This document shows, in pieces, positions 46,899 through 61,629 of a DNA stretch of 64,000 bases. Position 1 is the first letter of the stretch; every line of letters begins with the position of its first letter. The stretch lies in NCBI GenBank assembly GCA_029975055.1, contig JARKPU010000077.1:124001-188000 (forward strand), given 5' to 3'. This stretch comes from Anaerolinea sp. (GTDB lineage: Bacteria; Chloroflexota; Anaerolineae; Anaerolineales; Anaerolineaceae). The notes beneath the pieces are model-generated. The model searched no databases. It saw nothing but the letters and a program-made list of their open reading frames with translations, and was not told the origin of the DNA. The translations under genes and the position numbers were made by a program.

Positions 46899-48503
46899 AT
46901 GCCGAACCCTTTCCCGGCCCAATCTTCAGTCGTCGCCTATTTGCGTGATTCCGGTCACGAGGATCAAGAGCTCTCCGTCGAGCAGCAAGAAGCCCAGATA
47001 CGCGCCTGGTGCCTGGAAAACAACCTCCTCCTCACCGAGATCTTCACCGATGCTGCCGCGCCTGGCTCGTCCACCATCGGCCGCGCGGCTTTCCTTGAGA
47101 TGATCCGACGTTTCCGCACCCCTGGCTGCCAGGAAGCCGGCGTGGTCGTCTGGAAGTTCAACCGCTTCGCCCGCGATCTGGATGACGCCGCCTTCTATAA
47201 GGCCGATCTGCGCCGCCGCGGCTACATCATCCATTCCATCAACGATTCCGTTCCCGAAGGCCTTGATGGTCGCTTCTTCGAAGCTGCCATTGATTGGATG
47301 AACGCCCGCTACCTCGAGGATCTGCGCACCGATATCAAACGCGGCCAGCGCCACCTGGTCGATCAATACGGCGCCCTCGGCGGCACCCCTCCGCGCGGCT
47401 TCAAACGTCAGCCGGTTGAGATCGGCACTCGCCGCGACGGCCGGCCGCACATCGTCAACCGCTGGGTGCCCGACCCGAACCAGGTCGAGACGGTCCGCCG
47501 TGCCTGGCAGATGCGCGCATCCGGCGCCACATACGACCAGATCAACCGGATCACCCATCTCTACAAAACCACCAACGGCTACGAGCGCTTCTTCTCAAAC
47601 CGCCTTTATATCGGCCAGCTCGACATTGCCGGTCGGCGCATCGAGAACTATTGTGAGCCGATCATCGACCAACCTCTTTGGGACGCTGTGCAACTCATCC
47701 AGCAACAGCACGCCGAAGCCGTCCGCCGCAGCGACGACCATCCCCGCCGTAAGGCGTCCACATTCCTCCTTTCCGGCCTGATCTACTGTGCCCAATGCGG
47801 CTCTATGATGAACGCCGATATCGTCCAGTTCCGCAAGACCTCCCAGCATCGCTACGAATACTACGCCTGCTCCGGGCAGAACCGTCACAACGGCTGCACC
47901 GCGCGCAAGATCCCGCGTGCAGTACTCGAGAACACCATCCTGGAAATGTTTGCTGAAATCGTCTTGGATCCGCGCGTCATTCAAGCCCGCCACCATCAGC
48001 TGCAAGAGGCCGCCGACCAGGTCGAAGCCACCTACAAGCGCGAGCATACCCGCCTCAACCGCGAGCTGCGTGCAATCCGCCGGCGCATCGAAAACCTCAC
48101 TGAGTTGCTGGCCGAGAAGGGCAAATCCGTTCGCTCCCTGCTTGAGAAACTTGCCGATCTCGAGCGCGAAGAGACTGGAATAAAAACGCAGCTGGCCAAC
48201 CTCAAGAAGGTCAACCAGCCGGTTCCATCGTTGGATAAGCTACTCGAACAAAGCCATCAATTCCGCGAAATTCTGGCAAACCCCGCCGACCTGGCGAAAT
48301 TAAGCTTTCTACTGCATGCCATGATCCATCGCATTACTGTCGAGCTCGATCCCGAAACCGACGTGGTGCGTGGCCTTCTCCAATATTACGATCCCCCCTC
48401 CAAAATCGAATCTGGGTCATCGTACGATGACCCAGATCAGCCTCATCTTTATGATTTAACTACATGCCCCAGGAGGGACTCGAACTCTCAACCTAAGCGT
48501 TAG
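46899..48503 (+). CDS. Large serine recombinase (integrase candidate)
   Basis: A 534-residue large serine recombinase. The catalytic domain has YLRDSG (Arg16, Ser18) and VVVWKFNRFARDLDDAAFYK; the DUF4368-like/recombinase domain includes GGTPPRGFKRQPV; the zinc ribbon is LIYCAQCGSMMNADIV then YYACSGQNRHNGCTARK; a long coiled coil follows. The 3' end overlaps the tRNA-Arg gene antisense, and the last residues (CPRRDSNSQPKR) are tRNA-derived. So the stop codon lies in the attachment region, as expected for an integrase next to its target. A tyrosine recombinase is also present; one of the two integrates the element. Confidence 0.8.
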   Translation: MPNPFPAQSSVVAYLRDSGHEDQELSVEQQEAQIRAWCLENNLLLTEIFTDAAAPGSSTIGRAAFLEMIRRFRTPGCQEAGVVVWKFNRFARDLDDAAFYKADLRRRGYIIHSINDSVPEGLDGRFFEAAIDWMNARYLEDLRTDIKRGQRHLVDQYGALGGTPPRGFKRQPVEIGTRRDGRPHIVNRWVPDPNQVETVRRAWQMRASGATYDQINRITHLYKTTNGYERFFSNRLYIGQLDIAGRRIENYCEPIIDQPLWDAVQLIQQQHAEAVRRSDDHPRRKASTFLLSGLIYCAQCGSMMNADIVQFRKTSQHRYEYYACSGQNRHNGCTARKIPRAVLENTILEMFAEIVLDPRVIQARHHQLQEAADQVEATYKREHTRLNRELRAIRRRIENLTELLAEKGKSVRSLLEKLADLEREETGIKTQLANLKKVNQPVPSLDKLLEQSHQFREILANPADLAKLSFLLHAMIHRITVELDPETDVVRGLLQYYDPPSKIESGSSYDDPDQPHLYDLTTCPRRDSNSQPKR

Positions 48504-48538
48504 GAGTGCTTTGCTCTATCCTATTGAGCTACTGGGGC
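48465..48538 (-). tRNA. tRNA-Arg(CCT), putative prophage attachment target
   Basis: On the minus strand, acceptor GCCCCAG/CTGGGGC plus discriminator A, D-arm GCTC..GAGC, anticodon loop CTCCTAA (anticodon CCT, reading AGG), and T loop TTCGAGT. One mismatch each in the anticodon and T stems is seen. The gene points toward the prophage, so its 3' end (48465) faces the recombinase gene and likely the integration crossover. CCA is not encoded. Confidence 0.9.
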
Positions 48539-53344: not shown

Positions 53345-54199
53345 TCACTCCAGGCAGGATTTGCACGCCAGGATGGGGAAGAAATTGCCGCGCGGCAGGC
53401 TCAAATCCGGGCTCATTGCCGGGAGGATCTTCACCTGCTGGAAGCCGTTCCGCTCGAACAAGGCCACATAAGCCTCGTCGCGATACGCCTGGGCGCTCTG
53501 AGCGTAGAACGCCACCTCGCCGGAGGCGCAATCTACCACGTAATAACGGCCCGTGCGCGCCTGGGCAGTCTCATCCCAAAAGTTTTCTTGAAGCGCCAGG
53601 TAGGGCTGGTCTGAGAACAGCCCCGCCGCAGATGTGTACCAGCCCGGCCCGGCCAGGCCTTCGCGTCTGACGTCTTCGTAATCCTGCACCTCGAACATCA
53701 CCACTCCTTTTTCATTTAACGCCGCATAAGCTTTCCGCAGGATCAGGTTGGCATCGGCGGGCTTGAAGACGTTGAGTTCGCCATAGATTTGCATCACCAG
53801 GTCGTAACCCGAGCCAAAATCGGCCTCGCGCAGGTCGGCGAGCTGGTAGGTGATCTCCAACCCTTCGCGCACAGCTTCGCGCCGGGCGTACTCGATCGAT
53901 GCCGGGCTGTAATCGATGCCTGTGCAGGTGTGCCCGAGCTTCGCCAGCCGCTGCAGGTACAGCCCGGGGCCGCAGCCCAAATCGAGGATGCGCGCGGGCT
54001 TCGCGCCCAGCAAGTCGTTGTGGATCCAGCTCACGTGAGCGTCGATCGTCTCGCTGCGGCGGCTGGCGGCGTCGTGCTCCTGGGTGAGGTGCTGCTCGAG
54101 CATGCGCCGGCTGAAATCGGGGTCGTTCCAAGGGATATTATCGCCTTCGCTCCACGGCGCAGGCCGGGCGGGGCGGGAGACCAGGTCGGTAAGCTTCAT
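53345..54199 (-). CDS. SAM-dependent class I methyltransferase
   Basis: A 284-residue protein. The SAM-binding motif is ARILDLGCGPGLYLQRLAKLGHTCTGIDYSP, followed by IEYARREAVREG and the motif II/post I region YDLVMQIYGELNVF. The substrate is unknown; the N-terminal SWIHNDLLGAKP part and C-terminal beta sheet suggest a small-molecule enzyme. It is divergent from the his operon and separated by about 85 nt that include the his promoter. Confidence 0.8.
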   Translation of the reverse strand: MKLTDLVSRPARPAPWSEGDNIPWNDPDFSRRMLEQHLTQEHDAASRRSETIDAHVSWIHNDLLGAKPARILDLGCGPGLYLQRLAKLGHTCTGIDYSPASIEYARREAVREGLEITYQLADLREADFGSGYDLVMQIYGELNVFKPADANLILRKAYAALNEKGVVMFEVQDYEDVRREGLAGPGWYTSAAGLFSDQPYLALQENFWDETAQARTGRYYVVDCASGEVAFYAQSAQAYRDEAYVALFERNGFQQVKILPAMSPDLSLPRGNFFPILACKSCLE

Positions 54200-54247: not shown

Positions 54248-54276
54248 TTGACAAGCCCGTTTGCGGCTGGTAAACT
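54248..54276 (+). promoter_or_regulatory. his operon promoter
   Basis: TTGACA at 54248 to 54253 and TAAACT at 54271 to 54276 with an exact 17-bp spacer. The predicted transcription start, about 7 nt downstream, falls at 54283 to 54284, that is at the first base of the leader peptide ATG. So the leader peptide mRNA is probably leaderless. Confidence 0.7.
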
Positions 54277-54283
54277 ACCACTT

Positions 54284-54337
54284 ATGCAGCCGCGCATTTC
54301 CATGCACCATCATCATCTGCACCTCCCGCCCAATTGA
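54284..54337 (+). CDS. hisL: Histidine operon leader peptide
   Basis: A 17-residue open frame, MQPRISMHHHHLHLPPN, with four successive His codons (CAC CAT CAT CAT), Leu and a fifth His, then stop TGA at 54335 to 54337. It lies between the promoter and the attenuator terminator. Ribosome stalling at these codons under His-tRNA shortage would control the downstream operon, as in the his leader of enteric bacteria. No ribosome binding site is possible upstream if transcription starts at 54283, so it would be translated as a leaderless peptide. Confidence 0.85.
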   Translation: MQPRISMHHHHLHLPPN

Positions 54338-54404
54338 CCGGAGGCCGGCTGCGTTTAACTGCATACCGAACCTAGAAGCTCCCCCGGTCGCCGGGGGTTT
54401 TTTT
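54336..54404 (+). terminator. his attenuator: antiterminator and terminator
   Basis: The terminator is a perfect 7-bp stem CCCCCGG/CCGGGGG with loop TCG (54381 to 54397), then seven T (54398 to 54404), only about 17 nt before hisG. GACCGG at 54336 to 54341, which overlaps the leader stop codon, can pair with CCGGTC at 54384 to 54389 to disrupt it. GCAGCCG (54286 to 54292) also pairs with CGGCTGC (54346 to 54352), and TATGCAG (54283 to 54289) with CTGCATA (54359 to 54365). These give the alternative structures of a ribosome-mediated attenuator. Confidence 0.85.
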
Positions 54405-54421
54405 ATTTCTGAAGGAGGATG

Positions 54422-55432
54422 ATGAACACTCCGCAACCCGAGCCTGCTGTGCGCATTTCGCTGCCTTCCAAGGGCCGCCTGGCCGAAGACAGCCTGGATT
54501 TCCTGAACGCCTGCGGCCTGCGCATCTACAAGCCCAACCCGCGCCAATACGAGGCCACCATCCCGGCCTTGCCGGGGCTGGCAGTGCTCTTCCAGCGCCC
54601 TGCCGATATCGTCGTTTCGGTGCGCGATGGCAGCGTGGAGTTTGGCATCACAGGCATTGACGTGATCGAGGAGCGCCGTGGAGCCAACGGCGACTTGCTC
54701 ATCCTCCATGAGGCGCTGGGGTTCGGCAGCTGCGCCTTGCGGCTGGCGGTGCCCGAGCACTGGTCCGGCGTGGATGACATGGCCTCGCTGGGCCGCTACG
54801 CCGCCGCACTCGGCCGCCCGCTGCGCGTGGCCACCAAGTACCCCCTGCTCACCGAGCGCTTCCTCGCGCAGGCCGGCATCGCTCACAACCTCATCTCGGC
54901 CGAGGGCACCCTCGAAACGGCCCCGGCCATCGGTTATGCCGATATCATCTCCGACCTGGTCTCCTCCGGCCAGACCCTGCGCGACAACCGCCTGAAGCCG
55001 CTCGCCGACGGGTTGATTCAAACCTCTCAGGCGGCTCTCATCGCCAACCGGCGCGCGCTCAAGTCGCGCCCGCTTGCGCTGCAGATGGCCCGCCACCTGC
55101 TGGAATTTTTCGAAGCCCACCTGCGCGCCAGCGATGAACTGGCCATCTTCGCCAACATGCGCGGTTCCTCGCCGGAAGAAATTGCCCGGCGCGTCTTCAC
55201 CCAGCCCACCATCGCCGGGTTGCAGGGCCCGACCATCTCGCGCGTGGTCACCCGCGACGGCGACCCGAACTGGTACGCCGTCAACGTCATCGTGCCGCGC
55301 TCGCGCCTGTTCACTGCCGTGGGCGAGCTGCGCGCCATCGGCGGGAGCGGCGTGGTGGTCATGCCGGTGAGTTATATCTTTGAAGAAGAACCCCCGCGCT
55401 ACGCCGCCATGCTGCGCGCGCTGGAACAATAA
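54422..55432 (+). CDS. hisG: ATP phosphoribosyltransferase, long form
   Basis: A 336-residue long-form HisG, the first enzyme of histidine synthesis (ATP plus PRPP). The catalytic part has [15 protein letters not shown] and [28 protein letters not shown] and the C-terminal beta-alpha domain ([43 protein letters not shown]) is the HisG_C regulatory domain for histidine feedback. The start is at 54422 or 54419 (ATGATG). The AGGAGG site is very close, so its exact use is unclear. No hisZ is needed with the long form. Confidence 0.9.
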
Positions 55433-55448
55433 CCAAAGGACTTTGCTC

Positions 55449-56771
55449 ATGCTCCGCTGTCTTGACGTATCGACCGCGCAACATACCGTCTTAAAGCGCA
55501 CGCCGTTAGACGACATCGAAGTGCCTGCTTCGATGCTCGAAAGCATCCGCGCCCTCTTCGGCGAGCCGCTCACCCCCGGCCAGGCTGTGGAGCGCATCCT
55601 GCGCGATGTGCGCTCGCGCGGCGACGAAGCCCTGGCCGAATGGAGCGCCCGTCTGGATGGCAGCGCCCCGGGCAGCTTGCGCGTCGCGCCGGATGAGCTT
55701 GCCTCGGCGCTCGGAAGCCTCCCCCCCAACCAGCGGGCAGCCCTGGAATTGGCCGCCGGGCGCATCCGCCGCTTTCACCAGGCCCAGCCGGTCACCTCCT
55801 GGCTGACCAATACGCTCGGCGGGACGCTTGGGCAGCTCGTGCGGCCCATCCGCCGCGTTGGGCTGTACATCCCAGGCGGGAGCGCGCCGCTGCCTTCATC
55901 GGTGCTCATGTCGGCCATCCCGGCGCAGGTGGCCGGGGTGCAGAGCATCGCGGTGGCCGCTCCGCCGCAGCGCTCAACGGGCAAGATCGCCCCGGTGATC
56001 CTGGCGGTGTGCGCGTTGATCGGCCTCGACGAAGTCTATGCCCTGGGCGGGGCGCAGGCGGTCGCCGCGCTGGCCTTTGGGACGGCCTCCGTCGCGCCGG
56101 TTGATAAGATCTTCGGCCCGGGGAATCTCTTCGTCACCCTGGCCAAGCGGCAGGTGTTCGGCGTGGTCGGCATCGACGGGCTGGCCGGGCCGACCGAGAC
56201 GGTCGTCATCGCCGATGACTCGGCCAACCCGGCCTGGGTGGCCGCCGACCTTCTGGCGCAGGCCGAGCACGATGTGCTGGCCTCGGCCATCCTGCTCACG
56301 CCATCGCAGGCCCTCATCGAGCAGGTGCAGGCCGCCGTTGCGGAGCAGATTGAGCAGCGCGGGCGGGCCGAGATCATCGCCGCCTCGCTGGCCAACCGCA
56401 GCGCCGCCGTGTTGACGGGAAGCCTGCAAGAAGCCGCGCGCCTGGCCAACGCCTACGCCCCCGAGCACCTCTGCCTGGCCGTGCGCGAGCCCTGGCGCCT
56501 GGCGGAGCAGATCGATGCCGCGGGCGGGGTGTTCCTCGGCGAGCACTCCTTCGAGGTGCTGGGCGATTACGTCGCCGGGCCGAGCCACGTCATGCCCACC
56601 GGCGGATCGGCGCGCTTTGCCTCGCCGCTCAATGTGCTGGATTTCGTCCATTGGGTCAGCCTGGTGGCGCTGGATGAAGCCACCACCCGCCAGGTGGCCC
56701 CCGCCGCCGCGCAGATCGCATCCGCCGAGGGCCTGGATGCGCACGCGCACTCGGCCGAGGTGCGCTTATGA
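55449..56771 (+). CDS. hisD: Histidinol dehydrogenase
   Basis: A 440-residue HisD, which oxidises histidinol to histidine in two NAD steps. The ATG at 55449 follows AAAGGA; the upstream frame is spurious. Conserved segments: [93 protein letters not shown] and the C-terminal [19 protein letters not shown]. All standard motifs are present. Confidence 0.95.
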
Positions 56772-57886
56772 AAGCCGCGGCGCGCTTCGAGAACCTGCCC
56801 CCCTACACCCCCATCGAGCCGTTCGAGGTGCTTTCGGCCCGTTTGGGGTTGAGTGCGGGGCAGATCACCAAGCTGGATGCCAACGAGAACCCTTACGGGC
56901 CTTCGGAAAAAGCCCGCCAGGCCCTGGCAAACCTCGCCTATGCGCATATCTACCCCGACCCCGAAAGCCGCGCCCTTCGCGCCGGGCTGGCCAGGTTCAC
57001 CGGCGTGCCGCAGGAATTCCTCCTGGCGGGCGCCGGGGCCGACGAGTTGATCGACCTGCTTTTGCGCGTGATGCTCGAGCCGGGAGACTGCGTGCTCAAT
57101 TGCCCGCCCACCTTTGGCATGTACCCCTTCGACACGTTGATCAACGCCGGGCAGCTCGTTGAGGTGCCGCGCCGCGCCGATTTCTCGCTCGACCTGCCGG
57201 GCATCGCCGCCGCGCTGCGCGGCCGCCGCCCCAAGGTGGCTTTTTTAACCGCACCGAATAACCCAGACGGGCGCTTCCCTTCGGAGGAAGAAGTGAACCT
57301 GCTGCTCGGCAGCGACTGCCTGGTGGTGCTCGACGAAGCCTACATCGAGTTCACCGCGCAGGGCGGCCGCCTGGGCGGCGCGCTCAGCCGCATCGGGCAG
57401 GTGCCCGCGCGAGAAAACCTGGTGGTGCTGCGCACCTTTTCCAAGTGGGCCGGGCTGGCCGGGCTGCGCGTGGGCTACGGGGCCTTCCCCGGCTGGCTGA
57501 TGCCCATCCTTTGGAAGGCCAAGCAGCCTTATAACGTCAACGTGGCCGCCGGCGCCGCCGCCCTGGCCTCGCTGGATGACCTGGAGGCCCTCTCTAAAAA
57601 TGTAGGGCGCATCCAGACCGAACGGGCGCGCCTGCTGGAACGGCTGCGGGGCATCCCCTTCCTCCACCCTTACCCTTCAGAGGCCAATTTCATCCTCTGC
57701 CGCGTAGAAGGCCGCTCTGCAGCCGCCCTCAAGCAAGAACTGGCCTTGCGCGGCGTGCTTGTGCGCCATTACAACACCCCCTTGCTGCGCGACTACATCC
57801 GCGTATCCGTCGGCCGCCCGCAAGACACCGACACGCTCATGAACTGCCTCGAAGACATCCGCCTCCAGGTGAAAGCTGAGGGATAA
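56768..57886 (+). CDS. hisC: Histidinol-phosphate aminotransferase
   Basis: A 372-residue fold-type I aminotransferase. The start overlaps hisD by 4 nt. Motifs: [48 protein letters not shown] and the PLP-Lys segment [16 protein letters not shown]. It converts imidazole-acetol phosphate to histidinol phosphate. Length and motifs are normal. Confidence 0.95.
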
Positions 57887-57889
57887 AGT

Positions 57890-58492
57890 ATGCTCGAAAA
57901 TTCGCGCATCGGGTTTTACGAACGCAAGACCGCCGAAACTTCGGTGACCGTCAGGCTCAACCTCGATGGCAGCGGCAGGCACCAGGTCTCCACCGGTCTG
58001 CCCTTCCTCGACCATATGCTGGCGCAGGTCGCGGTTCACGGCCTGTTCGACCTGGAGATCCAGGCAGAAGGCGACCTGCAGGTGGACCCGCATCACACGC
58101 TGGAAGATACCGCCCTGACCCTTGGCGCGGCCTTCCAGCAGGCGCTTGGCGAGCGCGCCGGGATTACCCGCATGGCCTCCGCCGAGGTGCCCATGGATGA
58201 CAGCCTGGCCGCCGTCGCGCTGGATTTTTCCGGCCGCCCATACGCGGTCTTCCTCGGAGAGTGGACTCTGCCCACCGTCGGCGGCCTGCCCAACACGCTG
58301 CTGGCGCATTTCTTCGAGAGCTTTGCCCAGGCGGCGCGCTGCAACCTCCACGCCCGCATCCTCTACGGGCGCGACGACCACCACAAGGCCGAGGCACTCT
58401 TTAAAGCCTTCGGGCGGGCCGCCTGCGCCGCCACCCGCCTCGACCCGCGCCGCGGCGGCGCGATCCCATCGAGCAAAGGGAGGTTGGTGTAG
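57890..58492 (+). CDS. hisB: Imidazoleglycerol-phosphate dehydratase
   Basis: A 200-residue monofunctional HisB. Motifs: STGLPFLDHMLAQVAVH, VDPHHTLEDTA, VPMDDSLAAVALDFSGR, FESFAQAARCNLHARILYGRDDHHKAEALFKAFGRA. The histidine-rich segments bind the two Mn ions. It has no histidinol-phosphatase domain, so another phosphatase must act in this organism. Two nt separate it from hisC. Confidence 0.95.
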   Translation: MLENSRIGFYERKTAETSVTVRLNLDGSGRHQVSTGLPFLDHMLAQVAVHGLFDLEIQAEGDLQVDPHHTLEDTALTLGAAFQQALGERAGITRMASAEVPMDDSLAAVALDFSGRPYAVFLGEWTLPTVGGLPNTLLAHFFESFAQAARCNLHARILYGRDDHHKAEALFKAFGRAACAATRLDPRRGGAIPSSKGRLV

Positions 58493-58493
58493 G

Positions 58494-59111
58494 ATGAGCA
58501 CGGGCGATGTGCTGCTGGTGGATGCGGGCACAGGCAACCTGCACTCGGTGGAGAACGCGCTGCGCAGCCTTGGGTGCCGCCCGCTCGTAACCTCCGACCC
58601 GCACGACCTGCTCCGCCCGGCCAGGGTGATCCTCCCCGGCGTGGGCGCCTTCGGTGCCTTTATGCAGGGGCTCATCCAGGCCGGCCTCGATGAAGCCGTG
58701 CGCGAGGTTTTCCGGCGCGGTGACCCGCTGCTGGGGATCTGCGTCGGCATGCAGGCGCTGTTTGAGTCCAGCGCGGAGTTCGGCAGCCGGGCCGGGCTGG
58801 GGCTGCTGGCCGGGCGCGTGGTGCGCTTCGAAGCCGCCGGGGGCCTCAAGGTGCCGCACACCGGCTGGAACCAGCTAACCTTCGTTCGCCCTTCGCCGCT
58901 CTTCGCCGGGCTGGAACAGGGCTGTTATGCCTACTTCAACCACGCCTATTATTGCACCGCCGCCGACCCCCTGGACGTGCTGGCCGCCACCGATTACGGC
59001 CCCGGGTTCGCCAGCGCCGTTCAACGCGCCAACCTCTACGCGGTGCAGTTCCACCCCGAGAAGAGCCAGCAGGTTGGCCGCCGCATCCTGGCCAATTTCC
59101 TCACGCTCTAG
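58494..59111 (+). CDS. hisH: Imidazole glycerol phosphate synthase glutaminase subunit
   Basis: A 205-residue class I glutaminase. The start (MSTGDVLLVDAGTGNLHSV) lies 2 nt after hisB. Nucleophile Cys in LLGICVGMQALFE; catalytic His-Glu in YAVQFHPEKSQQVGRRILANFL. It supplies ammonia to HisF. Length is typical. Confidence 0.95.
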   Translation: MSTGDVLLVDAGTGNLHSVENALRSLGCRPLVTSDPHDLLRPARVILPGVGAFGAFMQGLIQAGLDEAVREVFRRGDPLLGICVGMQALFESSAEFGSRAGLGLLAGRVVRFEAAGGLKVPHTGWNQLTFVRPSPLFAGLEQGCYAYFNHAYYCTAADPLDVLAATDYGPGFASAVQRANLYAVQFHPEKSQQVGRRILANFLTL

Positions 59112-59119
59112 GAGCATCC

Positions 59120-59869
59120 ATGGACACCTCGCCCAACCCGCCCGACCGGTTCACCGTCTTCCCCGCCATCGACCTGCGCGGCGGGCAGGTGGTGCGCCTG
59201 CAGGAGGGCGACCCCCTGCGCCAGACGGCTTACTCCGCCGACCCGGCGGCCACCGCCGCGCGCTGGATCGCCGAAGGCGCGCGCTGGCTGCACGTGGTGA
59301 ACCTCGACGGCGCATTCGACAGCCCCGATGCAGCCAGCCGGGCGGCGCTGCAAGCCATTCTGAGCGTTTCTGCGCAGGCCAATGTGAAAGTACAGTTTGG
59401 GGGCGGTTTGCGCTCGCTGGAGGCCGTCCAGCGCGCCCTGGAGCTGGGTGTGGAACGAGTCGTCCTCGGCACGCTGGCCATCGAGCACCCCGAGGCCCTG
59501 GCCGAAGCCCTCTCGCGCTGGGGCGCAGAGCGCATCGCCGCCGGGTTGGATGCCCGCGGAGGCCTGGCGGCTCTGCGCGGCTGGCAGCAGGCCACCGAAA
59601 CGCCCGCGGCGCAGGCCGCCGCCCGCCTGCGCGATGCCGGGCTGCGCTGGCTCGTCTTCACCGATATTGCCCGCGACGGGCTGCAAACCGGGCTCAACCT
59701 GCCCGCCACGCTCGAACTGGCCCGCCATACCGGCCTTTGGGTGGTCGCCTCCGGCGGGGTGAAAGAGGCGAGTGAAATCCAGGCTGCGCGGGAGGCCGGG
59801 CTGGCCGGGGTCATCATTGGCCGAGCGTTGTATGAAGGCAGTATTCGATTGGCGGAGGTGCTATGCTAG
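59120..59869 (+). CDS. hisA: ProFAR isomerase
   Basis: A 249-residue (beta/alpha)8 enzyme. Motifs: [70 protein letters not shown] and [30 protein letters not shown]. Converts ProFAR to PRFAR. Its end overlaps hisF by 7 nt. The start has a GGAGCATCC site. Confidence 0.95.
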
Positions 59870-60630
59870 CCAGGCGCATCATCCCATGTATGGATATCGC
59901 CGGGGGGCGCATCGTCAAGGGGGTGCAGTTCGCCAACCTGCGCGACGCGGGCGACCCCGTGGAACAGGCCCGCGCCTATGACGCAGCCGGTGCCGACGAG
60001 CTGGCCTTCCTGGATATTTCGGCCACGCCCGAGGGCCGCGCCACGGTGGTTGACCTGGTGAGGCGCGTGGCCGGGCAGGTTTTCCTGCCGTTCACGGTGG
60101 GCGGGGGCATACGCAGCGTGGAAGATATGCGCCGCCTGCTGCTGGCCGGGGCCGATAAAGTCTCGGTCAACTCGGCCGCGGTGCGCCGCCCCGAACTGCT
60201 CAGCCAGGGCGCCGAACGCTTCGGCAGCCAGTGCATCCTGCTGGCCATCGACGCGCGCCGCGCCCCGGGTGCCGTACCGCGCTGGGAGGTGTTCATCGAC
60301 GGCGGCCGGACCCCCACCGGCCTGGACGCGGTGGAATGGGCCGCGCGCGGCGTGGAGCTGGGGGCCGGGGAGATTCTGCTCACCAGCATGGATGCCGATG
60401 GCACGCTGGCGGGCTTCGACCTGGCGCTCACCCGCGCCGTCACCACGGCAGTGAGCGTGCCGGTCATCGCCTCCGGTGGGGCGGGCGCTCCGCAGCACTT
60501 TGCCGATGTGCTCACCCTGGCTCATGCCGATGCCGCCCTGGCCGCCTCGCTCTTCCACGACGGCCGCCTGCGCATCCCCGAACTGAAAGACTACCTGGCC
60601 GCCCAGGGCGTGCCGGTGAGAAGGAGTTGA
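59863..60630 (+). CDS. hisF: Imidazole glycerol phosphate synthase cyclase subunit
   Basis: A 255-residue (beta/alpha)8 cyclase. Motifs: [76 protein letters not shown] and [17 protein letters not shown]. Together with HisH it makes imidazole glycerol phosphate and AICAR. All key residues are present (Asp in the first and the fifth barrel segments). Confidence 0.95.
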
Positions 60631-60631
60631 A

Positions 60632-61045
60632 ATGGCTCTCCAACCGAAAGTGCTCCAGTTTTTTTATAAATTGTGGGGCAAACCCCACAATTTACAGGAA
60701 AAGAACCACACGACCCTCCAACCGCGCTTCGACGCGGGTGGCCTGCTCCCGGCGGTGGTGCAAGACGCTTCCACCGGCCAGGTGCTCATGCTGGCTTATA
60801 TGAACCGCGAGGCCCTCGAACTGACCCTCCAGAGCGGTGAAACTCATTTTTGGTCGCGCAGCCGGAAGGAATTGTGGCACAAGGGCGGCACTTCGGGCAA
60901 CACGCAGCAGGTGGTGGAACTGGCGCTGGATTGCGACGGCGACGCATTGCTGGTGCGAGTCTTGCCGGCCGGGCCCGCGTGCCACACCGGCGCGGTGAGC
61001 TGCTTTTTCAACCCATTGACCCCTCCTAAGGACCCCACCTCATGA
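60632..61045 (+). CDS. hisI: PRA-CH cyclohydrolase with an in-frame palindromic insert
   Basis: A 137-residue HisI. The catalytic core is conserved: [80 protein letters not shown] with the metal-binding Cys residues. The N-terminus has about 26 extra residues (from ALQPKVLQ to NHTT) coming from the palindromic repeat, with its sequence read as [16 protein letters not shown]. The nine-base stretch CTCCAACCG is present on both sides (60638 to 60646 and 60716 to 60724), 78 bp apart, so the frame is kept. The gene overlaps hisE by 4 nt. Confidence 0.9.
60657..60704. repeat. Palindromic repeat element, copy 2 (inside hisI)
   Basis: Inverted-repeat arms of 12 bp, TAAATTGTGGGG and CCCCACAATTTA (60667 to 60694, loop CAAA), flanked by T- and A-rich tracts and in inverted orientation relative to the copy at 61880. 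Flanking CTCCAACCG repeats suggest insertion with a 9-bp duplication. The element is read in frame and adds residues to HisI. Confidence 0.85.
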
Positions 61046-61323
61046 CCCTCGATGAACTGTTTGACATCATTTGCACGCGGCGAGAAGCGCCCCCCTCCGC
61101 CTCTTACACGGCCCGCCTGCTGGCCGCCGGCGAGGATGAGATCCTCAAGAAGGTCGGTGAAGAGTCGGTGGAGGTAATCCTCGCGGCCAAGGCGCAGGGC
61201 GATGCGCGCCTGGTGGAAGAGATCGCCGACCTGGCTTATCACACCCTGGTGCTGTTGGCCGCCCGCGGCCTCACCCCGGATGATATCCGGGCCGAGCTTG
61301 CGCGCCGCCACCGCCCGGCCTGA
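61042..61323 (+). CDS. hisE: PRA-PH pyrophosphohydrolase
   Basis: A 93-residue HisE. Helical with the motif [26 protein letters not shown] and [19 protein letters not shown], typical of the all-alpha MazG-like pyrophosphohydrolase. It hydrolyses phosphoribosyl-ATP. It is separate from hisI here (often fused as hisIE). It ends the operon. Confidence 0.95.
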
Positions 61324-61352: not shown

Positions 61353-61379
61353 CTGTGTTGCGGGTAAAAATGTACCCCA

Positions 61380-61530
61380 CCATGCCGTGTGCTGCAGAGT
61401 TCTGAACCTGCTTTCGCAGGTGGGCACCTACCCGGCAGCGCTGCCTTGGCCGCAGCCTATCGCATTGCTCCCGAAAGATTGGCTCCCTTTTTTAAAGTGT
61501 TGGCTCAGAACTGGTTATGCGGCATCACGA
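61380..61530 (-). ncRNA. ssrS: 6S RNA candidate (ssrS)
   Basis: On the minus strand this interval closes with AGTTCTGA/TCAGAACT (61505 to 61512 with 61398 to 61405), an outer CGGCAT/ATGCCG pair, and a terminal-side hairpin ACCTGC GAAA GCAGGT (61407 to 61422). The text begins CTGAGCCAACACTTT then GGGAGCC, and ends GGTGCCCACCTGCGAAAGC then AGGTTCAGAACT; both ends resemble 6S RNA (E. coli CTGAGCCGATATTT and CCACCTT..AAGG-TTCA). This fills the 306-base gap between hisE and ytxH. No promoter was secured. Confidence 0.55.
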
Positions 61531-61629
61531 GCACAGCAGGGCTGAAGCAAAGATACCACAAATCCGCAGGATTGGGTAGAGAATTTTAAGTTGCCAGCCG
61601 GTTGTAAGGTGAGCGGCGGGCGTTTGGGT

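Follow-up and report, generated by a model that had tools for sequence, protein, structure and literature searches.

Introduction

In Escherichia coli and Salmonella, the his operon is preceded by hisL, a leader peptide with a run of His codons followed by antiterminator and terminator structures, so that the ribosome acts as the sensor. Enteric hisL has its own ribosome-binding site. Leader peptides that are leaderless or carry no such site are known from Actinobacteria, where some have intrinsic terminators and where they precede amino-acid or tRNA-synthetase genes. In Streptomyces lividans, leaderless transcription is documented for leuL1, leuL2, trpL1, trpL2, ilvL, metL and thrL (PMC8079986); the ilvBNC leader of Corynebacterium glutamicum is described as having no ribosome-binding site in the papers that cite Morbach 2000 (PMC4046766, PMC10272879). 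These leaders belong to another phylum than the one studied here and to other amino acids; the S. lividans list includes no His leader, and hisD of C. glutamicum has a leader devoid of a His-rich ORF (PMC3896937). Outside Proteobacteria, leader peptides with a His run do occur ahead of his genes or hisS: His leader attenuators are known in the Bacillus cereus group, Peptostreptococcaceae and Erysipelotrichales (PMC9413887), and a His leader lies ahead of hisS/hisZ paralogues in bacilli (PMC2965389). These cases are from Firmicutes and not from Chloroflexota, and the two papers mention no leaderless layout.

Here we analyze the region ahead of hisG in a 64,000-nt stretch of DNA (the window) from an Anaerolinea genome of 4.59 Mb (Anaerolineae), whose closest named HisG proteins are those of Anaerolinea thermolimosa (83%) and A. 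thermophila (78%). The sequence-only reading of the window had proposed that its his operon is controlled by a leaderless leader-peptide attenuator and had called such a leader unusual; given the actinobacterial examples (PMC8079986, PMC4046766), it is less unprecedented than that reading implied. The mechanism class is known, both from enteric hisL and from the leaderless trp, leu and ilv leaders of Actinobacteria. The combination of histidine, a leaderless leader, Chloroflexota and use at hisG plus hisS appears unreported, as no earlier report of his attenuation in Chloroflexota was found in the open-access literature (the attenuator survey of Lopatovskaya et al. 2010 and a 2015 conference paper on Actinobacteria His leaders, cited in PMC4833913, lay outside this search). 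Unlike hisL, which has its own Rfam family, the Anaerolineae leader has no Rfam match and no Shine-Dalgarno sequence, and it begins at the predicted transcription start. In comparison with the actinobacterial leaders, antiterminator conservation and ribosome spacing are measured here across many genomes.

Results and Discussion

Layout of the hisG leader

The his operon hisGDCBHAFIE is complete, and the elements ahead of it are collected in Table 1. All those named in the sequence-only reading were found: a sigma70-type promoter with a 17-nt spacer (54248-54276; one site seen against 0.3 expected in shuffles), a 17-residue leader with five His codons, the complementary pairs GCAGCCG/CGGCTGC and GACCGG/CCGGTC, and a terminator with seven T before hisG. 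The leader ATG stands at 54284, which leaves a gap of 7 nt from the -10 box. Only some 97 nt of transcript precede the terminator, and the leader ORF accounts for more than half of them. Since the nearest upstream gene is on the opposite strand, the terminator cannot end any upstream transcript. The features of a classical attenuator are present, i.e., a short leader ORF with a run of codons for histidine, the product of the operon, an intrinsic terminator between this ORF and the first gene and, as judged from sequence and folding, an antiterminator that would be exposed by a stalled ribosome.

Table 1. Features of the his leader region and operon (window coordinates)
Feature	Position	Strand	Basis or remark
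Nearest upstream gene, methyltransferase-like ORF	53345-54199	opposite	by eye
-35 box, TTGACA	54248-54253	+	kept in relatives
-10 box, TAAACT, with TG just 5′ of the box	54271-54276	+	promoter scan
Predicted transcription start, at or 1 base 5′ of the A of the leader ATG	54283-54284	+	promoter spacing
Leader peptide ORF, MQPRISMHHHHLHLPPN*, 17 codons	54284-54337	+	equivalent His-rich ORF in relatives
Segment A, RNA 5′ end with the AUG, partner of D	54284-54292	+	Z -6.3
Five His codons (codons 8-11 and 13)	54305-54322	+	leader ORF read
Segment B, CACCTCC; CCTCC pairs with GGAGG of C	54320-54326	+	Z -4.7
Segment C, GACCGGAGG, overlaps the stop codon, antiterminator 5′ half	54336-54344	+	Z -14.1
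Segment D, CGGCTGCGT, partner of A	54346-54354	+	folding and duplex statistics
Intrinsic terminator, CCCCCGG-TCG-CCGGGGG-T7	54381-54404	+	5′ arm and loop include CCGGTC
Segment E, terminator 5′ arm and loop; CCGGTC pairs with C	54384-54389 (CCGGTC)	+	antiterminator
Shine-Dalgarno sequence of hisG, AAGGAGG	54412-54418	+	sequence
hisG, first operon gene, TIGR00070	54419-55432	+	start at 54419 or 54422
hisD, hisC, hisB, hisH, hisA, hisF, hisI, hisE, in this order	55443-61323	+	remaining operon genes

Taken alone, the leader of the window has an ordinary RNA fold (z -0.5 to -1.2 in single-sequence folding), and 0.8 terminator-like sites are expected by chance in a single sequence, as estimated from shuffles. 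The evidence beyond chance therefore comes from the comparison with relatives. Two RNA genes lie on the minus strand of the window, a 6S RNA gene just 3′ of hisE (61370-61545) and a tRNA gene at 48465-48538.

Conservation of the leader in relatives

The hisG homologues of relatives were gathered by HisG homology, so that the leader pattern was not a search key, and their upstream regions were read. A leader was accepted when it had a short ORF with at least three consecutive His codons, or HHMH. By this rule 44 non-redundant hisG leaders with a His-run ORF were obtained, and the same leader that the sequence-only reading wished to see sought in other Anaerolineae is thus conserved. Looser rules (HH, HNHAH or HHAH) added three leaders with the same promoter placement (L044, L025, L030). 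The arrangement recurs in dozens of related species: nearly every hisG examined in Anaerolineales has the leader, including that of Anaerolinea thermolimosa IMO-1, and some in neighbouring families have it too; in several other families of the class the hisG upstream regions examined carried none. Operons that begin with hisD also bear a His leader (L091, L095). The His runs comprise 3-6 codons and keep a near-constant position in diverged genomes.

When 400 Chloroflexota genomes were searched with a strict leaderless-His pattern, 17 matched; this pattern misses many true leaders, so that a non-match elsewhere is no firm absence. The matches outside the order that were opened (L098, L105) were rejected as his leaders, as they do not lie ahead of his genes.

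The leader set was selected for His runs, and the promoter, pairing and spacing tests below are conditional on that selection. Kinship among the leaders also means that they are not independent data points, an effect that the swapped-partner and shuffle tests lessen without removing.

Promoter placement and the predicted leaderless start

For each leader, the single best promoter by consensus score was taken from the 200 nt upstream of the ATG. The -10 box ended 6-10 nt 5′ of the leader ATG in 39 of the 44 leaders, versus 10 of 880 dinucleotide shuffles (1%). A 7-nt spacing, as in the window, puts the predicted start at or beside the A of the ATG; with the 10-nt spacing seen in about one third of the leaders, some 3 nt of 5′ UTR may precede it. 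A Shine-Dalgarno-like 5-mer ahead of the leader ATG was found in none of 43 leaders, and one was present in 32 of the 44 hisG upstream regions. With a promoter aimed at the start codon and no Shine-Dalgarno sequence, we infer that the leader peptide is leaderless or near-leaderless, with a 5′ UTR of about 0-3 nt. The leaderless start of the sequence-only reading thus holds as a prediction based on promoter spacing.

The attenuator could be real and its leader translated from a longer transcript that starts at an unrecognised upstream promoter, in which case it would not be leaderless. Led leaders do exist in this genome, as its ilvD leader begins about 35 nt after its -10 box. We consider this reading unlikely, given the placement of the best promoter in 39 of 44 cases; furthermore, as the leader ATGs have no Shine-Dalgarno sequence, a longer transcript would give no normal start signal. 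Leaderless starts look to be in general use in the host genome: a promoter-then-ATG pattern occurs 40 times versus 6 for the reversed control, and several of the matches lie at the start of long genes of ordinary kind (by eye, uvrC-, xseA- and dnaJ-like). A published prediction (PMC3160421) covers 12 Chloroflexi genomes and assigns leaderless genes to 4 of them, with about 5% of genes being leaderless.

Alternative RNA pairings

An intrinsic terminator was present in 47 of 47 leaders (44 hisG and 3 hisS). The duplex between segment C and the terminator arm E had a mean energy of -16.2 kcal/mol, versus -11.0 with C shuffled (Z -14.1, 45 leaders), and when E was swapped between genomes the true pairs were equalled in 0 of 5000 trials. 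By eye, C and E vary by lineage yet remain complementary (GACCGG/CCGGTC, GGTCGGG/CCCGACC, TCGAAGG/CCTTCGA, ATTGACC/GGTCAAT and CCGATTGG/CCAATCGG). The pairing between A and D was also stronger than in shuffles (-14.1 versus -11.8, Z -6.3, 45 leaders; swapped partners 0 of 5000); it is significant for the set and weak in many single leaders, with 11 of 45 at p<=0.05, and the duplex takes in one of the first three bases (AUG) in 21 of 45. The B:C pairing gave a Z of -4.7 across the leaders, and the control pairings were near zero (A:E, Z 1.3; D:E, Z -0.4). Enrichment of an RNA polymerase pause site 3′ of the B:C hairpin was weak, and no such site is claimed.

Ribosome spacing

The sequence-only reading had remarked that stalling would start at the very first codons. 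This is wrong and the remark does not apply, since the His run begins at codon 8 in the window and at codons 8-10 in most leaders. A ribosome with a His codon in its A site covers about 10-11 nt past that codon. The distance from the last His codon to C was at least 11 nt in 47 of 47 leaders versus 59% in shuffles, and 11-23 nt in 44 of 47 versus 33%; a gap of at least 11 nt is what a stalled ribosome would require in order to leave C free. The minimum-energy fold was then computed with the ribosome footprint masked, and the antiterminator was scored as formed when at least half of its pairs were present. With the stalled footprint masked it formed in 41 of 47 leaders; it still formed in 21 of 47 ribosome-free RNAs, and in 1 of 47 with the ribosome at the stop codon, a value that is partly given by construction. 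The TGA stop codon and C overlap in many of the leaders, and hence a terminating ribosome would sit on the antiterminator.

These results, together with the layout in 44 hisG leaders and its hisS copy, support the attenuator reading, and they weigh on two further alternatives. The terminator could be constitutive and partial, with a His-rich ORF that is unused or due to chance and his genes regulated in another way; this is very improbable, because runs of 3-6 His codons hold their position across diverged genomes, the antiterminator complementarity is kept while the sequence changes, and the layout recurs before hisS. Control of hisG by a T-box or another tRNA- or metabolite-sensing riboswitch, with the short ORF incidental, would have parallels in the T-box-controlled his genes known from other Gram-positive groups (PMC9413887) and in a T-box-like leader seen by eye ahead of trpE in the host genome, but it is hardly credible for so short a transcript, mostly ORF, where conservation is focused on the His run and on the spacing between that run and the antiterminator. 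In the leader, Rfam covariance models matched neither a T-box nor His_leader up to a permissive E = 5, and an Rfam scan of the whole window likewise gave no match to a riboswitch, a T-box or His_leader.

A second copy before hisS, and other leaders

A second His leader lies before hisS in the same genome (L089:1501-1690; G000:C4:336194 on). It encodes MKRVPGLLHHHAHLHRS*, the same GACCGGAGG stands at its stop codon, a terminator follows, and it too is predicted to be leaderless. Of 30 genomes examined, 3 have such a hisS leader, the host genome among them, so that control of hisS appears sporadic.

Leaders of other kinds were also observed. In a relative, a leaderless Thr/Met-rich leader, MKSVHFATTMTMNTSGPRREAFVHGMK, precedes a terminator and an aspartate-kinase-like gene (L094; G060:C7:50036), which points to leaderless attenuation in the Thr/Met branch as well. 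In the host genome, the promoter-adjacent ORF MKLVGFRTVKLISCMCPRRGQVTLPRR, followed by CCAGCAGAA/TTCTGCTGG and a T run before a cysteine-synthase-like gene (L129; G000:C35:21427), is a possible leaderless Cys leader. Another promoter-adjacent ORF, MNQRSCLFVLADKRVKRIAPHTFRVRGLSAVKQA, with a strong terminator, lies before a homocitrate/isopropylmalate-synthase-like gene and has no clear regulatory codon (L119; G000:C7:6909). The ilvD leader (L184:440-680; G000:C70) is Ile/Leu/Val-rich, MLFVHSVAIILVLIAALVIESLLPIRAARRCEVKIK, with a terminator, and is not leaderless; the trpE leader (L183:14110-14490; G000:C70) is T-box-like (GGGTGGCACCACGGG and a terminator) and falls below the Rfam T-box threshold. 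As trpE is T-box-like and ilvD is led, leaderless attenuation is not a general rule of this genome.

Proposed mechanism and its meaning

The his operon is very probably under ribosome-mediated transcription attenuation through a leader peptide that is leaderless or preceded by 0-3 nt. The RNA 5′ end, the translation of the leader and the response to histidine are predictions of the following model. Transcription would begin at or beside the AUG at 54284, and a ribosome would load on this 5′-terminal AUG without a Shine-Dalgarno sequence. When charged His-tRNA is scarce, the ribosome would stall on codons 8-13 and cover B, so that C would be free to pair with the terminator 5′ arm (CCGGTC) and the operon would be transcribed. 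When His-tRNA is plentiful, the ribosome would reach the stop codon and cover C, and the terminator would form. If no ribosome is loaded, A would pair with D around the B:C hairpin, C would tend to stay away from the terminator arm and termination would be favoured. A more tentative extension, which we regard as possible and rather doubtful, is that the A:D helix holds the AUG in the ribosome-free RNA, so that two inputs would gate the operon, 70S initiation at a free 5′ end and charged His-tRNA, and that the Anaerolineales share this device by descent and have put it to use again at hisS.

Leaderless leader-peptide attenuation, for which there are documented cases in Actinobacteria, would thereby be extended to histidine and to Chloroflexota. 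The 47 leaders form a compact comparative set for asking how a ribosome loaded on a 5′-terminal AUG keeps pace with RNA polymerase, and A. thermolimosa IMO-1 offers a testable host. For a large and mostly uncultured group they also provide a ready prediction of how his and hisS are regulated: the leader probably acts as a sensor of histidine scarcity, so that the his genes would be read only when histidine is scarce.
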